64,000 nt of DNA, from contig NZ_SGUC01000001.1 of assembly GCF_005435165.1 (NCBI RefSeq), positions 62,001 to 126,000 on the forward strand. Direction: 5' to 3'. The stretch comes from Halorubrum sp. GN11_10-6_MGM (GTDB lineage: Archaea > Halobacteriota > Halobacteria > Halobacteriales > Haloferacaceae). The translations under genes and the position numbers were made by a program. Positions within the stretch are counted from its first letter, which is position 1, and the number at the start of each line of letters is the position of its first letter. Below, piece by piece: positions 45,523 to 56,276 of this stretch. Under the pieces are notes generated by a model, which saw only the letters and a list, made by a program, of their open reading frames with translations, did no database searches and had not been told where the DNA came from.

Positions 45523-45585
45523 ATGAACACGAGCGAAGCGCGGTACGAATCGGACGAGCGTTCAGTAGAGGTGGATAACGCGTGA
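45523..45585 (+). CDS. Possible 20-residue leader peptide overlapping amt
   Basis: [20 protein letters not shown] then TGA; the stop overlaps the GTG of amt (GTGA, 45582-45585). A TATA-like TTTATGTATAG ends some 35 bases upstream. Translational coupling to amt is plausible; expression of the peptide is not shown. Confidence 0.4.
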
Positions 45586-47261
45586 CGGGCGGCATCCTCG
45601 CCTCGATCGATCCGAGCGTCCTCGCCGAGGGCGTGAACCTGATGTGGGTCGCGGTGGTGTGTTTCCTCATCTTCTTCATGCACGCCGGCTTCGCGATGCT
45701 CGAAGCGGGCCAGGTGCGCGCGAAGAACGTGGCCAACCAGCTCACCAAGAACCTGCTGACGTGGAGCGTCGGCGTGCTGTTCTACTTCCTGGTCGGGTTC
45801 GGCGTCGAAGGGATCGCCGGCGGTGCCGGCTTCTCGGCGGCCGCCGCGCTCGGTGACGGCGGCTGGGTCAACAGTTGGCTGTTCGGCGCCGTCTTCGCGA
45901 TGACGGCGGCGACGATCGTCTCCGGCGCGGTCGCCGGACGCGCGAAGCTCCGCGCGTACGTGGCGTACACGATCGCCATCTCGGCGGTCATCTACCCGGT
46001 CGTCGCGGGGATCACCTGGGGCGGCGGCTTCCTCGGCGGGGCCGGCCTCGGGTTCTCCGACTTCGCGGGCGGGATGATCGTCCACGGCATGGGCGGTATC
46101 GCCGGTCTCACGGCGGCGTACGTGCTCGGTCCGCGGATGGACCGCTACGCCGAGGACGGCTCGACGAACGTCATCCCCGGTCACTCGATGACGTTCGCGG
46201 TGCTCGGCACCCTCATCCTCGCGTTCGGCTGGTACGGGTTCAACGTCGGCACGACCGCGACCGTGTTCTCGGTCACGGAGTCCGGCGAGCTCGCGCTCGG
46301 CGGCTACGCGTCGGTCGGCCGCGTCTCGCTCACCACGACCCTCGGTATGGCTGCGGGCGGAGTCGGCGCCGCGCTGGCCTCGGTCGGGCTCTCGAAGAAG
46401 GTCGACACGCTGTACGTCGCGAACGGGCTCCTCGCGGGGCTGGTCGGCGTGACCGGCATCGCGAACCTCGCCACATGGTGGGGCGCCATCGCGGTCGGGC
46501 TGGTCTGCGGTCTCCAGCTCCCGCTCGTCTTCGAGTTCGTCGCCGACCGGATGAAGATCGACGACGTCTGCGCGGTGTTCCCCGTCCACGGTTCGGCCGG
46601 GGTACTGGGCGTCCTCGCGCTGCCGTTCGTCAGCATCAACGGCTTCTCCGTCGACCTGCTCGTCTCGCAGGTGATCGGCGTGGTCGTCATCGCGGCGTGG
46701 ACCGTGGTCGCGACGGCCGTCGTCTTCGGCCTGTTCAAGGCAGCCGGACAGGCCCGCGTCACCCCCGAACACGAGCGCGACGGCCTCGACGTCAGCGAAC
46801 ACGGCGTCGAGACGTACCCCGAGTTCGGTAAGCCCTCGGTCACCACCGACGGCGGTCGCGTGGTCGGCGACGCGAACGAGGGTTCTCCCCGCGCCGACGG
46901 CGGCGAGGAGGAGGGCGCGGAGATCAAGATGGTCACCGCGGTCGTCCGCCCCGACAAGCTCGGGGCCATCAAGCAGGCGCTCGCGGAGATCAACGCGCCC
47001 TCGCTGACGGTGACGAACGTCTCCGGCCGCGGCAGCCAGCCCGCCAAGAAGGGCCAGTGGCGCGGCGAGGAGTTCACCGTCGACCTCCACCAGAAGGTGA
47101 AGATCGACGTCGTCGTCGCCGACATCCCGGCCGACGAGGTGGCGGAGGCGATCGCCGACGCCGCCGAGACCGGCGAGCCCGGCGACGGCAAGGTGTTCAT
47201 CATGCCGGTAGAGGACGCGCTCCAAGTGCGCACGGGTACGACCGGCCCGGAGGCAGTGTAA
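45582..47261 (+). CDS. amt: Ammonium transporter fused to a P-II domain
   Basis: A 559-residue fusion. Residues 1 to about 400 are an 11-helix Amt/Mep ammonium channel ([58 protein letters not shown]). After an acidic linker (about 410-445), residues ~448-559 form a P-II signal domain: [19 protein letters not shown], a T-loop [20 protein letters not shown] and a C-terminal [19 protein letters not shown]. Normally P-II (GlnK) is separate and blocks the channel when 2-oxoglutarate is low; here the gate is covalently attached. The T-loop lacks the Tyr used for uridylylation. Confidence 0.94.
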
Positions 47262-47382: not shown

Positions 47383-48720
<1,338 letters not shown>

Positions 48721-48785
48721 CCCCCGCAGGCGCCGTCCCGCGAACCGCTCGGCAAGTGTTGCGCGCGCCGGGCGGTGCGCAACAG

Positions 48786-48793
48786 TTTTATAT
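48786..48793 (+). promoter_or_regulatory. TATA box of the small transcript upstream of argG
   Basis: TTTTATAT is one of the strongest TATA matches in the window. Transcription would start near 48816, which is the ATG of a 42-codon Arg-rich frame. Confidence 0.6.
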
Positions 48794-48815
48794 CGGAGAT
48801 CGGTACGTAGAGGTG

Positions 48816-48957
48816 ATGACCGCAGCGGCTCGTCTCGACGCCGCCCTCTTCCGAGGCCGACGAGCCCTGCGACCGCGACGAGACGTCCGACCGCCGCGAC
48901 CGGCTTCCGGCGCGGCGCGACGACGAGGCCCTTCGGGCCAGTAATCTTTCACCTCTC
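48816..48957 (+). ncRNA. Candidate structured small RNA (or 42-codon Arg-rich leader) before argG
   Basis: From the start point predicted by the TATA box at 48786-48793, the transcript contains a perfect 8-bp pairing (GGCTCGTC at 48827-48834 with GACGAGCC at 48859-48866) and ends in a GGCCC-TTC-GGGCC hairpin (48927-48939) followed by a T-containing tail (AGTAATCTTT). The same segment encodes a 42-residue frame with 12 arginines (48816-48944) just upstream of the arginine operon. A small RNA fits the terminal hairpin best; a leader peptide sensing Arg-tRNA is a speculative alternative, because Arg-rich frames are common in GC-rich DNA. Confidence 0.4.
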
Positions 48958-49023
48958 GTCGCGTTCGCGCCGTTTCGTTCCGAAGAGTCTCGACTCCGCG
49001 TTCCGCGAGCGGCCGCGCCGCCA

Positions 49024-49036
49024 TTTTGTTACAAAA
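49024..49036. promoter_or_regulatory. Palindrome upstream of the argG TATA box
   Basis: TTTTGT-T-ACAAAA is a perfect 6-bp dyad with one spacer base, ending 12 bases before the argG TATA (GAATTTAAGG, 49048-49057; ATG 49082). AT-rich dyads in this position are typical archaeal operator sites. A looser relative, GTTT-TATGT-AAAC (51977-51989), lies about 20 bases upstream of the lysW TATA. Confidence 0.45.
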
Positions 49037-49081
49037 TCTAAACCGCTGAATTTAAGGGCGTAGGCCGGGTGTACACTGGTA

Positions 49082-50320
49082 ATGACGAGCGTTGCACTCG
49101 CGTTCAGCGGGGGACTCGACACCACGGTCTGCGTACCGCTACTGAAAGAGGAGTACGGCTACGACGAGGTCATCGGCGTCAACGTCGACGTCGGCCAGCC
49201 GACGGAGGAGTTCGACGAGGCGGAAGAGACCGCCGAGGCGCTGGGGCTCGACATCCACGTCGTGGACGCGAAAGCGGAGTTCGCGGACCTCTGCTTCGAC
49301 GCGGTGAAAGCGAACGCCAGCTATCAGGGCTACCCGCTCGGCACCGCCCTCGCGCGCCCGGTCATCGCCGAGGCCATTCTGGAGGTCGCCGAGGAGGAGG
49401 GCTGTGACGCCATCGCCCACGGCTGTACGGGCAAGGGCAACGACCAGCTCCGCTTCGAGGCCGTCTGGCGCGGCTCCGACCTCGAAGTGATCGCCCCCGT
49501 GCGCGAGCTCGGCCTCACCCGCGAGTGGGAGATCGACTACGCCGCCGAGAAGGACCTGCCCGTCGAGGCCGGCGACGGCGGCGTCTGGTCCATCGACGAG
49601 AACATCTGGTCGCGCGCGGTCGAAGGCGGGGAGCTGGAGAACCCGGACTACGAGCCGCCGGAGGACATCTACGAGTGGACCGCCGAGCCCGAGGGCGAGA
49701 CCACCATCGAGGTCGCCTTCGAGGAGGGGGTCCCGGTCGCCGTCGACGGCGAGGCGATGGACCCGGTCCCGCTGATCCAGCACCTCAACGAGTACGCGGG
49801 CGGCTACGGCGTCGGTCGCACCGACGTGATGGAGGACCGCATGCTCGGGCTGAAGGTGCGCGAGAACTACGAGCACCCGGCCGCGACGGTCCTGCTGACC
49901 GCGCATCAGGCGCTCGAAGACCTCGTCTTGACGAAGAACGAGCGCTCGTTCAAGAAGGGGATCGAACAGGAGTGGTCCGAGAAGGCCTACGAGGGGCTCG
50001 TGTTCGCGCCCGTCGTCGACGCGCTCGACGCCTTCGTCGACGAGACGCAGGACGTGGTGACCGGCACGGCGACGGTGAAGGTGTCTGGCGGGGACTGCCG
50101 CGTCGTCGCGCGCGACTCCGAGTACGCGGTCTATTCCGAGGAGATGGCCTCGTTCAACACCGAGGACGTCGCCGGCATCGCCCAGTCGGACGCGACGGGC
50201 GTCGCGAAGTACCACGGACTCCAGGAGCGCCTCGCAAACGACGTGAAAGCGAGCGTCTCGAAGCCCGAACTCGCGACGGACGGCGCCGGTGAAACGGACG
50301 AGACCGCCGACGGAGAATAG
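49082..50320 (+). CDS. argG: Argininosuccinate synthase
   Basis: A 412-residue ATP-dependent ligase joining citrulline and aspartate. The PP-loop is LAFSGGLDTTV near the start; AIAHGCTGKGNDQLRFE and EWEIDYAA are conserved substrate-binding segments. It opens the nine-gene arginine cluster; its stop is directly followed by the argH ATG. A TATA box 29 bases upstream implies a leaderless message. Confidence 0.97.
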   Translation: MTSVALAFSGGLDTTVCVPLLKEEYGYDEVIGVNVDVGQPTEEFDEAEETAEALGLDIHVVDAKAEFADLCFDAVKANASYQGYPLGTALARPVIAEAILEVAEEEGCDAIAHGCTGKGNDQLRFEAVWRGSDLEVIAPVRELGLTREWEIDYAAEKDLPVEAGDGGVWSIDENIWSRAVEGGELENPDYEPPEDIYEWTAEPEGETTIEVAFEEGVPVAVDGEAMDPVPLIQHLNEYAGGYGVGRTDVMEDRMLGLKVRENYEHPAATVLLTAHQALEDLVLTKNERSFKKGIEQEWSEKAYEGLVFAPVVDALDAFVDETQDVVTGTATVKVSGGDCRVVARDSEYAVYSEEMASFNTEDVAGIAQSDATGVAKYHGLQERLANDVKASVSKPELATDGAGETDETADGE

Positions 50321-51793
50321 ATGAGCGACGACGATCCCGGCACCGCCGTCCGCCGCGACCGCTTCAGCGGCGGCCCCGCCCGCAAGTTCCTGTCGAGCCT
50401 CGCGGCCGACGAGGCCATCTTCGAGGCGGACCTCGCGGTCGACCGCGCGCACGTGGTCATGCTCGCGGAGCAGGGGATCGTCGACAGCGCGGCCGCGGGC
50501 GAGATCCTCGCCGCGCTCGACGACGTGGAGGCGGCCGGGCACGCCGAACTGCCGGACGGCGAGGACGTCCACGAGGCGATCGAGACCGCCGTCATCGACC
50601 GGGTCGGCCCGGACGGCGGTCGGATACACACCGCGCGGTCGCGCAACGACGAGGTGGCGACCTGCATTCGGTATCGGCTCCGCGAGGACCTGCTAGACGT
50701 CGCCGAGGCGACCGTCGCCGCCCGGGAGGCGCTCGTCGAGGTCGCGGGCGAGCACGCCGAGACCGTGATGCCGGGGTACACCCACCTCCAGCCGGCGCAG
50801 CCGACGACGGTCGCGCACTACCTGTGCTCCTACGAGGGCGGACTCGCGCGCGACACCGAGCGCCTGCTCGACGCGTACGGCCGGGTGAACCGGTCGCCGC
50901 TCGGCGCCGCCGCGTTCGCGGGGACGCCGTTCGACGTCGACCGCGACCGCACCGCGGAGCTGCTCGGCTTCGACGGGACGGTCCGGAACTCGACCGACGC
51001 CGTCTCGTCGCGCGACTTCCTCGCGGAGGCGGCGAGCGCGCTCGCGACGCTCGCGACGACGCTGTCGGGGCTCGCGGAGGACCTGATCGTCTTCTCGAAC
51101 AAGGGAGTCGTCGAACTGGCGGACGCGTACGCCTCCACCTCCTCGATCATGCCCCAGAAGAAGAACCCCGACACGCTGGAGCTGACCCGGGGCGTCGCGG
51201 GCGACGCGATCGGCGAGGCGACCGGAACGCTGAGCCTGCTGAAGGGGCTCCCGCGGGCGTACAACCGCGACCTCCAGCGTGCCCACGCCAGCGTCTTCGA
51301 GATCGCGGGCGACGTGCGGGAGGCGACCGAGGTCGCCGCGGGCGCGGTCGCGACCGCGGAGTGGGACGAGGCCGCGCTCGCGGCCGCCGCGGGCGAGGGC
51401 TTTTCGACGGCCACCGGGGTCGCGGACCTGCTCGCGACCGGCGGGATGCCGTTCCGGACCGCCCACGAGATCGTCGCGACAGCCGCGGAGACCGTCGAGG
51501 ACGGCGATTCGCCGGGCGCGGCAGCCGCAAAAGTTGACGAGGCCGCGCGAAAGGTCACGGGCGAGCCCCTCTCCGCGTACGTGAGTCGCGAGGACGTGGA
51601 GTCGGCGCTCGACCCGGCCGAAAGCGTCGCGAGCCGCGACTCCGCCGGGGGACCGGCCCCCGAGGCGGTCGCCGACGAACTCGCCGCGGCCGAGGCCGGG
51701 ATCGAGTCGGACGGCGACGCGCTGGCGGTGGAGCGCGACGCGCTCGACGCCGCGAACGAGGCGCTCGACGCGGAGGTCGATCGCTATGTCTGA
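50321..51793 (+). CDS. argH: Argininosuccinate lyase
   Basis: A 490-residue member of the fumarase/aspartase superfamily, releasing arginine and fumarate. The signature is TSSIMPQKKNPDTLEL; other conserved segments are DGGRIHTARSRNDEVAT and PGYTHLQPAQPTTV with the catalytic His. It starts on the base after the argG stop. The C-terminus after the MPQKKNP region carries a haloarchaeal acidic extension. Confidence 0.97.
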   Translation: MSDDDPGTAVRRDRFSGGPARKFLSSLAADEAIFEADLAVDRAHVVMLAEQGIVDSAAAGEILAALDDVEAAGHAELPDGEDVHEAIETAVIDRVGPDGGRIHTARSRNDEVATCIRYRLREDLLDVAEATVAAREALVEVAGEHAETVMPGYTHLQPAQPTTVAHYLCSYEGGLARDTERLLDAYGRVNRSPLGAAAFAGTPFDVDRDRTAELLGFDGTVRNSTDAVSSRDFLAEAASALATLATTLSGLAEDLIVFSNKGVVELADAYASTSSIMPQKKNPDTLELTRGVAGDAIGEATGTLSLLKGLPRAYNRDLQRAHASVFEIAGDVREATEVAAGAVATAEWDEAALAAAAGEGFSTATGVADLLATGGMPFRTAHEIVATAAETVEDGDSPGAAAAKVDEAARKVTGEPLSAYVSREDVESALDPAESVASRDSAGGPAPEAVADELAAAEAGIESDGDALAVERDALDAANEALDAEVDRYV

Positions 51794-52008
51794 GCCGCGC
51801 CCGCGCGGCGGTCGTCGGCTCGGTCGGCGTTCGGCGACCCGCCGTCGGCTCGGTCGGTGCCAACCCGATCGACGCCGACGACCGTCCCCGTAGGGGGACA
51901 CACTTACTACCGAGATCTGACATCCGATCTCGATACGACTCGATTTCGTCGAACTGCTCCCGTTAGCGGCCGATCCGTTTTATGTAAACTATCCGATAAG
52001 TTCGAAGC

Positions 52009-52016
52009 CTTTATAC
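52009..52016 (+). promoter_or_regulatory. TATA box of lysW
   Basis: CTTTATAC is centred about 30 bases before ATG 52043. It gives the second half of the arginine cluster (lysW to argE) its own promoter. Confidence 0.6.
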
Positions 52017-52042
52017 CCGTTCACGGCCCAGTGTCTGGCACG

Positions 52043-52231
52043 ATGACGAGCGACACCGACACGCTGACCGCGGAGGACCCGATCACGGGCGAGGAGATCG
52101 AGATTCCGGCCGACGTCGAGGTCGGCGAGATCATCGACAGTCCGGTCACCGGGACCGAGCTGGAGGTCATCTCGCTCGACCCGGTCGTCCTGGAGGAGGC
52201 GCCCGAGCTCGAGGAGGACTGGGGCGAGTAA
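52043..52231 (+). CDS. lysW: Amino-group carrier protein LysW/ArgW, without cysteines
   Basis: A 62-residue carrier protein whose C-terminal Glu (EAPELEEDWGE) receives the glutamate that is converted to ornithine while bound. The family's usual zinc site is two CPxCG motifs; here they read DPITG (residues ~12-16) and SPVTG (~33-37). All four cysteines are gone, yet the core IEIPADVEVGEI and ELEVISLDPV is intact. The fold must be stabilised without zinc, perhaps by the high-salt, acidic context (inference). Confidence 0.93.
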   Translation: MTSDTDTLTAEDPITGEEIEIPADVEVGEIIDSPVTGTELEVISLDPVVLEEAPELEEDWGE

Positions 52232-52271
52232 TGGCGACGACCGCCACGGCCGCGACACCCGAGTGGTCGAC

Positions 52272-53180
52272 ATGCGCGTAGGGATCCTCTACTCCCGGAT
52301 CCGGAAAGACGAGAAGCTCCTGCTCAACGAGCTCCGCGACCGGGGCCACGAGGTCGAGAAGATCGACGTGCGCAAGGAGCGGTTCGGGCTGGAGTCGACG
52401 ACGGCGGCCGTCGACGACCTCGATATCGCCGTCGACCGCTGCCTGTCGACGAGCCGGTCGCTGTACGCGACCCGCTTCCTCGACAGCTACGGCGTCCCGG
52501 TCGTGAACGCTCCCGAGACGGGCGACGTCTGCGCCGACAAGGCGAAGAACTCGCTCGCGCTCGCCGAGGCGGACGTCCCGACCCCGGCGACGGAGGTGGC
52601 GTTCACCAAGGAGGCCGCCCTAGAGGCGATCGAGGAGTTCGGCTACCCGTGCGTCCTCAAGCCGGTCACCGGCTCGTGGGGGCGGCTGATGGCGAAGATC
52701 GACTCGCGCAACGCCGCCGAGGCGATCTTGGAACACAAGGAGACGCTCGGTCACTACGAACACAAGGTGTTCTACGTTCAGGAGTTCGTCGACAAGCCCG
52801 GCCGTGACATCCGCGTGCTGGCGGTCGACGGCGAGCCGGTCGCGGCGATGACGCGGTCGTCGGACCACTGGCTCACGAACGCCGCGAAGGGCGGCGAGAC
52901 GAACTCGTTCGAACTCGACGACCGCGCGACCGAACTGGTCGAGACGGCGTCCGACGCGGTCGGCGGCGGCATGCTCGGCGTCGACCTGATGGAGGTTGGC
53001 GTCGACGCGGACGGCGGGGCCGACGACTACACCGTCCACGAGGTGAACCACACCGTCGAGTTCAAGGCGCTCGATTCGGCCACCGACGTCGACGTCCCGG
53101 CGCGGGTCGTCGACTGGCTGGAGGCGAAGGCCGCGGCGCTGGCCGACGACGGCGAGGCGCCCGAGGAGGTGAACGCGTGA
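52272..53180 (+). CDS. argX: Glutamate--LysW ligase ArgX
   Basis: A 302-residue ATP-grasp enzyme that attaches glutamate (possibly also 2-aminoadipate in some species) to the C-terminus of LysW. The N-terminus MRVGILYSRIRKDEKLLLNE and the ATP-grasp segments CVLKPVTGSWGRLMAKID, FYVQEFVDKPGRDIRV and EVNHTVEFK (Mg ligands) are visible. ATG 52272 is chosen over a GTG nine bases upstream. The stop overlaps the start of argC by four bases. Confidence 0.93.
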   Translation: MRVGILYSRIRKDEKLLLNELRDRGHEVEKIDVRKERFGLESTTAAVDDLDIAVDRCLSTSRSLYATRFLDSYGVPVVNAPETGDVCADKAKNSLALAEADVPTPATEVAFTKEAALEAIEEFGYPCVLKPVTGSWGRLMAKIDSRNAAEAILEHKETLGHYEHKVFYVQEFVDKPGRDIRVLAVDGEPVAAMTRSSDHWLTNAAKGGETNSFELDDRATELVETASDAVGGGMLGVDLMEVGVDADGGADDYTVHEVNHTVEFKALDSATDVDVPARVVDWLEAKAAALADDGEAPEEVNA

Positions 53181-54226
53181 CTGACGACACCTACACCGCG
53201 AGCGTCGTCGGCGGCACCGGCTTCACCGGCGGCGAGCTGCTTCGGCTGCTCGCCGGGCACCCGAGCTTCGAGGTCGTTCAGGCCACCTCGCGGTCGGCCG
53301 ACAACATGACCGTCGGGCGCTCGCACCCGAACCTGCGCGGGCTCGACCTGCGCTTCTCCGACCCCGACGACCTCGAATCGGTCGACGTGCTGTTCGCGGC
53401 GACGCCCCACGGCGTCTCGATGGGCCGGATCGACGAGTTCTTCGACGCCGCCGACACGGTCGTCGACCTCTCGGCCGACTTCCGGCTCCCCGAGGCCGAC
53501 GCCTACGACGAGTGGTACGACGGCCACGAGTCGCCGGAGTACCTCGAACGCGCCGAGTACGCGCTCCCGGAGCTGAACCGCGAGAATCTCCCCGGCGCCG
53601 ACCTGATCGCCGGCGGCGGCTGTAACGCGACCGCGACGATCCTCGGGCTCAAACCCCTCGTCGACGCCGGGGCGATCGGTCCCGACGCCGGCGAGGTCGT
53701 CGTCGACGTGAAGGTCGGCTCCTCGGAGGGCGGCGCCAGCGGCGGCGCGGCCTCCTCGCACCCGGAGCGCTCGGGCGTCGTGCGCCCGTACGCGCCCACG
53801 GGCCACCGGCACGAGGCGGAGATCGAGGCGTACCTCGGACTCTCCGTCTCCTTCACCGTCCACGCGGTCGACATGGTCCGCGGCGCGAGCGCGACCTGCC
53901 ACGTCTTCCCCGACGAGCCGGTCTCGAAGGGGGACCTGTGGGGCGCGTACCGCGACGCCTACGCCGACGAGCCGTTCATGCGGATCGTCTCCGGCGGGGG
54001 CGGGGTGTACCGCTACCCCGAGCCGAAGTCGGTCGCTGGGACGAACCACGGCGAGGTCGGCTTCGAGCTCGACCCCGGGAACCGTCGGGTGGTCGTCTTC
54101 TCGGCCATCGACAACATGACCAAGGGCTCCGCCGGGCAGGCGGTCCACGCGGCGAACGTCGCGCTCGGGCTGCCGGAGACCGCGGGCCTCGAATTCGACG
54201 GGTTACACCCGGTGGGTGCGCCGTGA
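53177..54226 (+). CDS. argC: LysW-glutamyl-phosphate reductase
   Basis: A 349-residue NADPH-dependent semialdehyde dehydrogenase. VVGGTGFTGGELLRLL is the nucleotide-binding start; AGGGCNATATIL contains the catalytic Cys. In the carrier route it reduces the phosphorylated LysW-glutamate made by ArgB. GTG 53177 overlaps argX, and its own stop overlaps argB, so five genes here are coupled. Confidence 0.95.
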   Translation: MTDDTYTASVVGGTGFTGGELLRLLAGHPSFEVVQATSRSADNMTVGRSHPNLRGLDLRFSDPDDLESVDVLFAATPHGVSMGRIDEFFDAADTVVDLSADFRLPEADAYDEWYDGHESPEYLERAEYALPELNRENLPGADLIAGGGCNATATILGLKPLVDAGAIGPDAGEVVVDVKVGSSEGGASGGAASSHPERSGVVRPYAPTGHRHEAEIEAYLGLSVSFTVHAVDMVRGASATCHVFPDEPVSKGDLWGAYRDAYADEPFMRIVSGGGGVYRYPEPKSVAGTNHGEVGFELDPGNRRVVVFSAIDNMTKGSAGQAVHAANVALGLPETAGLEFDGLHPVGAP

Positions 54227-55152
54227 CGGGGACCGATTCGGAAGCGGCGACCGCGCCGCCGGTCGTCGTCAAGATCGGCGGCGCGAAGGCGGTGGACCCG
54301 GCCGGCGCGGTCGGCGACGTCGCGCACCTCGCGGTCAACGGGCGCTCGGTCGTCGTCGTCCACGGCGGCTCGACGGTCGTCGACGAGACGCTCGAACGGC
54401 TCGGCATCGAGCCGGAGTACGTCGAGTCCGCCTCCGGCGTCACCGGTCGGTTCACCGACGCGGAGACGATGGAGGCGTTCTCGATGGCGATGGCGGGCAA
54501 GCTCAACACCGAACTGACGGCGCAGTTCCGGTCGGCCGGCGTCGACGCGGTCGGCCTCTCGGGCGTCGACGGCGGGCTCCTCGCGGGGCCACGCAAGTCG
54601 GCGGTCCGCGTCGTCGAGGACGGGAAGCGGAAGATTCGCCGCGGCGACCACTCGGGGACGATCGAGTCGGTGAACGCCGACCTGCTCGACGGACTCCTCG
54701 AAGACGGCTACACCCCCGTCGTCTCGCCGCCGATGGCGGGCGACGAGGGCGACGGCGACGTGACGGCCGTCAACGCGGACGCGGACCGCGCGGCCGCGGC
54801 GGTCGCGGGCGCGCTCGGCGCCGACCTCGTCCTGCTGACCGACGTCTCCGGCGTGTACGCCGACCCCGACGACCCCGAGACGCGGATCGACGCCGCCGCG
54901 ACGCCCGACGAGCTGGCGGCGGTCGAGGACGCCGCCGAGGGGTTCATGGGCAAGAAGGTGATGGCCGCGAAAGAGGCGCTGTCGGGCGGCGCCGGCCGCG
55001 TCGTGATCGCCGACGCCAACGTCCGCGACCCGGTCGTCGCCGCGCTTGACGGCGAGGGGACGACGGTGGCGCGGTCGGCGCTCGGCGACGCGGCGGACGG
55101 AGGCGACGCCGGCCGCGACGACGCCGAGACCGAAGGAGGTGAGACCGCGTGA
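54223..55152 (+). CDS. argB: LysW-glutamate kinase
   Basis: A 309-residue amino-acid kinase family protein. The substrate and ATP signatures are VVKIGGAKAVD, VVVVHGGSTVVDETL and LVLLTDVSGVYADPDDPE. It phosphorylates the side-chain carboxylate of glutamate carried on LysW. The start is GTG 54223; a short acidic C-terminal tail runs into argD with a four-base overlap. Confidence 0.94.
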   Translation: MTGTDSEAATAPPVVVKIGGAKAVDPAGAVGDVAHLAVNGRSVVVVHGGSTVVDETLERLGIEPEYVESASGVTGRFTDAETMEAFSMAMAGKLNTELTAQFRSAGVDAVGLSGVDGGLLAGPRKSAVRVVEDGKRKIRRGDHSGTIESVNADLLDGLLEDGYTPVVSPPMAGDEGDGDVTAVNADADRAAAAVAGALGADLVLLTDVSGVYADPDDPETRIDAAATPDELAAVEDAAEGFMGKKVMAAKEALSGGAGRVVIADANVRDPVVAALDGEGTTVARSALGDAADGGDAGRDDAETEGGETA

Positions 55153-56276
55153 GCGGCTTCGTCTTCTCGGAGAAGCCGATCGAGATCGCCTCGGGCGACG
55201 GGGTCCACGTGACCGACGCGAACGGCACCGAGTACCTCGATTTCGGCGCCAGCTACGCGTGTACGCCGGTCGGACACTGCCACCCCGAGGTCGTCGACGC
55301 CGCGACGAGCCAGCTGGAGGAGCTGGTGTACGTCCAAGCGTCGTACCCGCACGCGGCGCGGACGGCGCTGTACGAGCGGCTGGCCGAGGTCGCGCCCGTC
55401 GACGTCGACAACGTCTGGCTCTGTAACTCCGGCACCGAGGCGAACGAGGCGGCGCTGAAGTTCGCCCGGCACGCGACCGGACGCGAGAAGATCGTCGCGA
55501 CCACGCAAGGGTTCCACGGCCGGACGATGGGCGCGCTCGCGACGACGTGGAAGGAGAAGTACAAGCAGGGGTTCGGCCCGCTCGCGGGCGGCGTGGAGTT
55601 CGTCGAGTACGGCGACGCCGACGCGATGCGCGAGGCCGTCGACGAGGACACCGCCGCGGTCATCCTAGAGCCCCTCCAGGGCGAGGGCGGGATCAACCCC
55701 GTCTCGACCGAGTACCTCCAAGCCGTCCGCGTCGCGACGGCGACCTCGGGCGCCGCGATGATCCTCGACGAGATCCAGACCGGACTCGGCCGCACCGGCT
55801 CGATGTGGGCGGCCGACCGCCACGACGTGGTCCCGGACGTCCTCACGACCGCGAAGGGGCTCGGGAGCGGACTCCCGATCGGCGCGACGCTGTGTCGCGA
55901 CTGGATCGCCGAGGACGCCGGGGACCACGGCTCGACGTTCTCCGGCGGGCCGGTCGTCTCCGCGGCCGCGGGCGCCACGCTCGACGTGATCGAGCGCGAG
56001 GAGCTCCCCGCGCACGCCGAGGAGATGGGCGCATACCTGCGCGGCGAGCTCCGCGACCGCCTCGGCGACGACGTCCGCGACGTGCGCGGCGACGGGCTGA
56101 TGGTCGGAATCGAGGTCCGTCGCGGCTCGAACCGCTTGCTCCGCGATCTCGCGATCGAACACCAGATCCTCGCGCTGCCGGCGGGCCGGACCGTGCTGCG
56201 GCTGCTCCCGCCGCTGACGATCGAGCGCGAACACGCCGACGCCGTCGTCGACGCGATCGAAGAGGTGATCGGCTGA
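55149..56276 (+). CDS. argD: LysW-ornithine aminotransferase
   Basis: A 375-residue class III PLP aminotransferase. The cofactor site includes NSGTEANEAALKFAR, ILDEIQTGLGRTG and TTAKGLGSGLPIGA (PLP lysine). It converts LysW-glutamate semialdehyde to LysW-ornithine. It overlaps argB by four bases and argE by one. Confidence 0.95.
   Translation: MSGFVFSEKPIEIASGDGVHVTDANGTEYLDFGASYACTPVGHCHPEVVDAATSQLEELVYVQASYPHAARTALYERLAEVAPVDVDNVWLCNSGTEANEAALKFARHATGREKIVATTQGFHGRTMGALATTWKEKYKQGFGPLAGGVEFVEYGDADAMREAVDEDTAAVILEPLQGEGGINPVSTEYLQAVRVATATSGAAMILDEIQTGLGRTGSMWAADRHDVVPDVLTTAKGLGSGLPIGATLCRDWIAEDAGDHGSTFSGGPVVSAAAGATLDVIEREELPAHAEEMGAYLRGELRDRLGDDVRDVRGDGLMVGIEVRRGSNRLLRDLAIEHQILALPAGRTVLRLLPPLTIEREHADAVVDAIEEVIG

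Follow-up and report, generated by a model that had tools for sequence, protein, structure and literature searches.

What occupies the DNA that separates hemL (47383-48720) from the arginine operon argG-argH-argW-argX-argC-argB-argD (49082-56276) in Halorubrum sp. GN11_10-6_MGM? An earlier reading of the window, i.e. the whole stretch of 64,000 nucleotides analysed here, had pointed to a TATA box with a predicted start at 48816, a perfect 8-bp stem, a terminal hairpin with a T-containing tail that would delimit about 140 bases, and a 42-residue frame with 12 arginines immediately ahead of argG. The original prediction was that this is either a regulatory RNA or an arginine-sensing leader. The comparisons described below, which were made at the level of sequence, confirm that the observation is more than chance and is more general than had been assumed, and they favour the leader over the regulatory RNA. 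The element is probably a ribosome-sensing arginine leader (an attenuator) that acts in cis on the argG operon. Its features are collected in Table 1.

Table 1. Features of the argG leader and of the adjoining arginine operon, in window coordinates.
Feature	Position	Strand	Remarks
BRE/TATA of the leader transcript, GCGCAACAGTTTTATAT	48777..48793	+	read from the sequence; kept in 51 genus genomes
Leaderless leader ORF, 42 codons, 12 Arg	48816..48944	+	encodes MTAAARLDAALFRGRRALRPRRDVRPPRPASGAARRRGPSGQ
Stem P1, 13 bp with one bulge	48821..48871 (48821-48834 / 48859-48871)	+	covariation
Arg-codon run	48858..48923	+	nine CGA codons invariant in 51/51 genomes
CGCGACGAG (Arg codons), 5' strand of a predicted stem with 48955-48963	48874..48882	+	predicted fold
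Stop-codon hairpin GGCCC-TTC-GGGCC	48927..48939	+	stop TAA (48942-48944) starts 2 nt later
Near-invariant strand CTCGTCGCGTTCGCGCCG	48955..48972	+	complementary to 48874-48882 and to ~48911-48928, in mutually exclusive stems
T-tract TTTTGTT	49024..49030	+	first T-tract 3' of the leader, between the leader and argG units
Second promoter GAATTTAA, argG's own TATA at leaderless spacing	49048..49055	+	kept in the genus and, outside it, in class I loci
argG, argininosuccinate synthase	49082..50320	+	NCBIfam NF010392, TIGR00032
argH, argW, argX, argC, argB (within ORF 53938-55152), argD	50321..56276	+	remaining arginine operon genes

The TATA box proper is TTTTATAT (48786-48793), and its centre lies 26 nt from the leader ATG (48816-48818), as expected for a leaderless transcript. 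The region is present in 51 of the 52 genomes of the genus, which are not independent of each other, and both the TATA box and the predicted start are kept in these 51; in the 52nd (G020), argG is cut at the end of a contig. Among 87 loci from other genera, positions counted from the leader start codon show a T-rich peak at -31 to -29 and purine/A at -38 to -36, with the proviso that the TATA box was used in part to pick the starts in these loci. Since argG in the window lineage has a promoter of its own, its expression there does not strictly depend on the leader. A scan of the whole window against Rfam 15 at gathering score returned a single tRNA and nothing else, i.e. the leader matches no known RNA family, riboswitch or T-box. 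It should be noted that the argW/lysW ORF at 51857-52231 carries about 70 extra N-terminal residues ahead of the LysW domain, and its true start is probably internal to the listed ORF. Elsewhere in the window, the ORF at 45582-47261 fuses an ammonium transporter domain to a P-II regulatory domain, as identified with Pfam.

Within the genus, the leader frame begins with ATG or GTG in 51/51 genomes and ends with an in-frame stop in all of them, namely TAA at 48942 in 43 and TGA or TAG at 48933 in the other 8. Insertions and deletions inside the ORF are of 3 or 6 nt; those of 1 nt occur solely 3' of the stop. The openness of the frame was dropped as evidence: in most of the 51 genomes, five of the six frames have no stop over 48816-48926, and an open frame alone thus carries little weight. 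In the window, 11 of the Arg codons are CGA and one is CGT, and the invariant CGA codons of the genus are those at 48858, 48861, 48870, 48876, 48879, 48888, 48897, 48918 and 48921. The codons between them vary freely, and many of the changes hit the second base and so replace the residue. For example, codon 48867 is Pro in 31 genomes, Leu in 18 and Val in 2, and codon 48882 is Gly, Asp, Ala or Val. Entropy at the three codon positions is 0.19, 0.41 and 0.27, respectively, with most changes at second positions; an ordinary protein gene would not show such a profile. Of the 400 Arg codons found in the last ten leader positions of other genera, 264 (66%) are CGA, as compared with 37 of 256 (14%) in window genes, the latter background being drawn from eight window ORFs only. 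A function of the peptide alone does not need such a preference, and it appears that mainly the Arg codons and the frame matter in the leader peptide.

The predicted 8-bp stem (GGCTCGTC at 48827-48834 with GACGAGCC at 48859-48866) holds up and is the core of the longer stem P1, which begins 5 nt 3' of the A of the leader AUG. P1 covaries: 18 cells have double changes, compared to a shuffled mean of 5.5, and this value was matched by none of 500 shuffles. The Leu/Pro change at codon 48867 is accompanied by a silent third-base change at 48824 that restores the P1 pair. Thus, RNA pairing ranks above peptide sequence at this site, and the RNA constrains the peptide. Beyond the genus, 30 of 87 leaders have a P1-like stem after the AUG at p≤0.05, where about 4 would be expected, significance having been derived from mononucleotide shuffles. 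Both the TATA box and the stem are conserved in close relatives, and this check, which could have refuted the original prediction, did not do so.

The terminal hairpin exists as well, although its role differs from the one proposed. It was rejected as a terminator and as the end of the RNA, given that it bears or adjoins the stop codon and has no U-run after it; the conserved RNA continues past it into the near-invariant strand at 48955-48972, and the first T-tract is found only at 49024-49030. The stop begins after the hairpin in the window lineage and lies within it in most genera. The hairpin shows compensatory changes, with G-C replaced by C-G at stem position 3 and U-A pairs at positions 4 and 5, and its stem takes the forms GGGCC/GGCCC, GGCCC/GGGCC, GGGGTC/GACCCC and GACGGGC/GCCCGTC across loci; loci with longer loops fall out of register in the ungapped alignment, which lowers the formal covariation score of the hairpin. 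The T-tract may be where archaeal termination takes place, or it may form part of the argG promoter region.

The fold of the whole leader RNA is only modestly stable (z = -2.0), which counts against the attenuator reading. When a ribosome is modelled on 48876-48912, the predicted fold shifts from the stem formed by 48874-48882 to that formed by ~48911-48928, both of which would use the near-invariant strand. This pair of mutually exclusive stems is predicted in the window lineage only, by an energy model without covariation support. The pairs of the 48874-48882/48955-48963 stem are unchanged in 33-34 of 34 sequences, and such near-invariance means that covariation cannot test it.

We read the DNA upstream of argG directly in 145 genomes, including those of the genus, that represent nine haloarchaeal family-level groups. 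About 140 of these regions share a common plan: a TATA box, a leaderless AUG, P1, a run of Arg codons (mostly CGA), and a stop codon that sits in a covarying GC hairpin or next to it. A script identified a leaderless Arg-rich ORF in 137 of the 145 regions, and reading added six that it had missed (L051, L096, L106, L113, L154 and L157), leaving L128 and L144. As the script takes the best of several candidates, the same rule was run on control regions, namely 74 upstream regions of five genes (trpC, pheS, tyrS, trpS and hisG). Under a strict rule (3 or more Arg among the final 12 codons, and the stop held by a GC stem), 75 of the 94 argG regions outside the genus pass and none of the 74 controls do; only 7 of 51 genus genomes pass, because the stop there usually falls just past the hairpin. 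Any leaderless short ORF is found in 87/94 and 1/74, respectively. The stop lies in the hairpin at 74 of 81 loci for the ORF frame and at 0 and 3 for the other two frames, counts that are somewhat biased by an ORF choice favouring the hairpin, though the start required a TATA box. Start, frame, Arg/CGA codons, and a stop in or beside the hairpin are kept class-wide, which favours the leader alternative of the original prediction.

The DNA motif CGACGACNGGSCCNNTARGSCC has a single occurrence per genome in 90 of 391 genomes of the class; the reversed control gave 0. Among named genomes, it is present in Haloferax, Halococcus, Haloplanus, Halorhabdus, Halorientalis and others. All 30 matches checked in other families lie 92-139 nt 5' of argG, and 28 of them have a recognisable leaderless start. 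Among 30 genomes negative for the motif, the leader ORF was found in 28 by the script and in the other two by reading. Scattered bacterial matches to the motif pattern in a scan of 84,980 species, and low-scoring short GC-rich matches elsewhere in genomes, were taken as chance. In close relatives of Haloferax volcanii, the argG leader encodes MATRSTFATFAPLRAAAVRPRRRAL. A conserved TATAGGCATCTCTGC-like motif was also seen about 70 nt before argG, between the leader and the T-tract, in several genera (L088, L090, L092, L106, L108 and L272).

Across families, the leader peptides end alike (VRRPRRPGR, RRRRPAL, RPRRPGL), and comparison of their N-terminal halves, which are unrelated between families, yielded no conserved peptide sequence. 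An Arg-rich micro-protein that functions for its own sake would account for a conserved, probably translated ORF and for its steady C-terminal flavour (RRPRRPGR and similar); however, it accords poorly with those unrelated N-terminal halves, with lengths that range from about 21 to 59 codons, with the excess of second-position over third-position entropy in the genus, and with the retention of the codon itself rather than of the residue alone, and we consider it very improbable. A trans-acting small regulatory RNA with an accidental frame is equally hard to credit. Its own promoter, conserved stems, the T-tract before argG and strong nucleotide conservation in the genus would suit such an RNA, but families too diverged for nucleotide alignment still share its start, frame and stop, and the element is present in single copy and, at all loci examined, immediately 5' of argG.

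The loci of other genera fall into two classes, assigned by simple pattern rules. In class I (50 of 87), argG has its own TATA box, and a T-tract lies upstream of it in 45 of the 50. In class II (37 of 87), argG has no recognisable TATA box, and the T-tract is found in 0 of 37. Since argG in class II has no recognised promoter, leader and argG should share a transcript, and action in cis is the natural reading; together with single copy and position directly before argG, these 37 loci back the leader and speak against an RNA that acts in trans. A still more remote idea is that the conserved element is promoter or operator DNA of argG and that its RNA has no role. The region from the T-tract to the argG start is indeed conserved and AT-rich, but this leaves unexplained the patterns of frame, codon, stop and covariation 80-250 nt further upstream.

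The class II loci also lend some support to a different mode of cis control, one that would act on argG translation or on mRNA stability rather than on transcription termination. The position of the ribosome on the leader could, for example, refold the 5' UTR before the argG start. Class II lacks both the T-tract and a recognisable argG promoter, and in several of its genomes (L117-L121, L126-L131 and related) the last 70 nt before argG carry the interleaved complementary segments CCGCCC, GTCGGG, GGGCGG and CCCGAC, a possible pseudoknot or switch. In class I, however, to which the window belongs, argG has its own leaderless promoter, and the resulting leaderless mRNA would escape the control of an upstream leader. 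We regard this explanation as possible, though on the whole unlikely.

That the element is a cis-acting arginine leader seems to us highly probable; this identity is more secure than the transcription-attenuation step, on which we are evenly divided. Competition between the ribosome and FttA for the archaeal transcription complex is a published hypothesis (PMC11616081), and we infer that it could extend to the argG leader. The leaderless mRNA would begin at the leader AUG, and the translating ribosome would open P1 and then meet the CGA run just before the stop codon in or next to the GC hairpin. With charged arginine tRNA in ample supply, the ribosome would reach the stop and leave, the hairpin and downstream stems would form, and transcription would stop short of argG, most likely around the T-tract and aided by the termination factor FttA/aCPSF1. 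Under arginine shortage, the ribosome would wait at the CGA codons, block the stems and stay close behind RNA polymerase, such that transcription continues into argG. Where argG has its own promoter, the leader would add to a basal level, and where it does not, the leader would control all argG mRNA. Transcription, translation, stalling, termination and the direction of the arginine response are all expectations of this model. Some of the preference for CGA may reflect a need for RNA pairing or for a binding protein, and the T-tract could be a promoter element of argG rather than a terminator. If present class-wide, an arginine leader would point to the way in which haloarchaea sense arginine at the argG operon, and would couple translation with transcription in archaea in a manner directly testable in Haloferax.

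Ribosome-mediated attenuators are familiar from bacteria, e.g. trpL, hisL and pheM, the leader of E. coli pheST. The argG leader resembles them in its short co-directional ORF upstream of a biosynthetic operon, its run of codons for the amino acid of the pathway, and its putatively ribosome-sensitive stems. It differs from them in having a leaderless AUG at the transcript start, a stop codon inside or beside a GC hairpin, a proposed T-tract/FttA-type termination in place of the bacterial intrinsic terminator, and, at roughly half of the loci, a further promoter that serves the target gene. E. coli tnaC, which is linked to Rho, requires free tryptophan and a specific peptide; to our knowledge, archaea have no Rho. 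The likeness here is that the stop codon is the key position and that a held ribosome would keep a termination factor off, whereas in the argG leader it is the codons that are conserved and not the peptide. The fungal arginine attenuator peptide (CPA1/arg-2 uORF) has a conserved sequence and stalls ribosomes at high arginine. It shares with the argG leader the amino acid, an upstream ORF of about 25 codons and an arginine-pathway target gene, but the haloarchaeal leader conserves little beyond Arg codons. A 2021 paper knew of no archaeal example of a bacterial-type ribosome-sensing amino-acid leader, which a class-wide arginine leader would supply. In the literature searched, we found no later report of archaeal attenuation or of a haloarchaeal argG leader peptide; preprints and key Haloferax ribosome-profiling work were outside the scope of this search, so priority is not assured. 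The argG leader thus appears to be an undescribed gene of a kind known in bacteria.

Leaders of similar layout were found at two aminoacyl-tRNA synthetase genes. Leaderless ORFs with Phe-rich ends lie upstream of pheS in four other families (L193, L194, L203 and L206; e.g. MASEPHSRCPARKQQDGPGFGFFFAA and MAPEPHRRCRRAGDRPTASPGFGFFFAG) and in some genomes of the window genus (L196, L200, L201 and L202; MALERATAGIARRADGDAFGFFFN), with ends such as FGFFFA and FGFFFN; the window's own pheS (coding from ~7450) seems to have no Phe leader. The target gene is of the same kind as that of E. coli pheM. Two trpS genes (L234 and L236) are preceded by leaderless ORFs with Trp runs, MRAAPATRRWRWHPPGADSVGGAVGAA and MIAVRWRWRVPSPADSPARSPAVA (RRWRWH and VRWRWR). 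Weak Trp matches at trpS in L238, L245, L246 and L247 were set aside, as they have no TATA box or resemble other coding frames, and the upstream regions of trpC, tyrS and hisG contain no cognate codon clusters in the leader layout. In Haloferax volcanii, Table 2 of a dRNA-seq study lists uORFs of 26 and 23 amino acids in the 5' UTRs of pheS and a Trp-tRNA ligase gene (PMC4983044), which may be the same ORFs as the Phe and Trp leaders. The H. volcanii argG (HVO_0049) is absent from that uORF table, which counts against the leader reading, and the accompanying section proposes no sensing role for the uORFs.

These synthetase leaders also bear on nascent-peptide arrest, in which an RRPG-like C-terminal end would stall the ribosome at the stop when arginine is plentiful, after the manner of the fungal arginine attenuator peptide, giving control of the opposite sign. 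An Arg/Pro-rich end does stand just before the hairpin stop codon in nearly all lineages. However, the peptide ends vary (RRRGR, RRRAL, RRRPGRF), a mechanism based on the peptide alone leaves the CGA preference unexplained, and the Phe and Trp versions fit codon sensing better; we find arrest improbable. Returning to codon sensing, we lean towards the view that haloarchaea generally use ribosome-sensing leader peptides that end at or near a hairpin, with Arg at argG, Phe at pheS and Trp at trpS. If so, these would be the first cases of amino-acid attenuation in archaea, where a eukaryote-like transcription machinery would have arrived at the bacterial design by convergence. The combination of a TATA box, a leaderless ORF, a run of cognate codons and a stop hairpin offers a recipe in the search for further leaders. 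Two of the pheS leaders carry their stop in the hairpin loop, e.g. GCGGCC-TGACCG-GGCCGC in L203.
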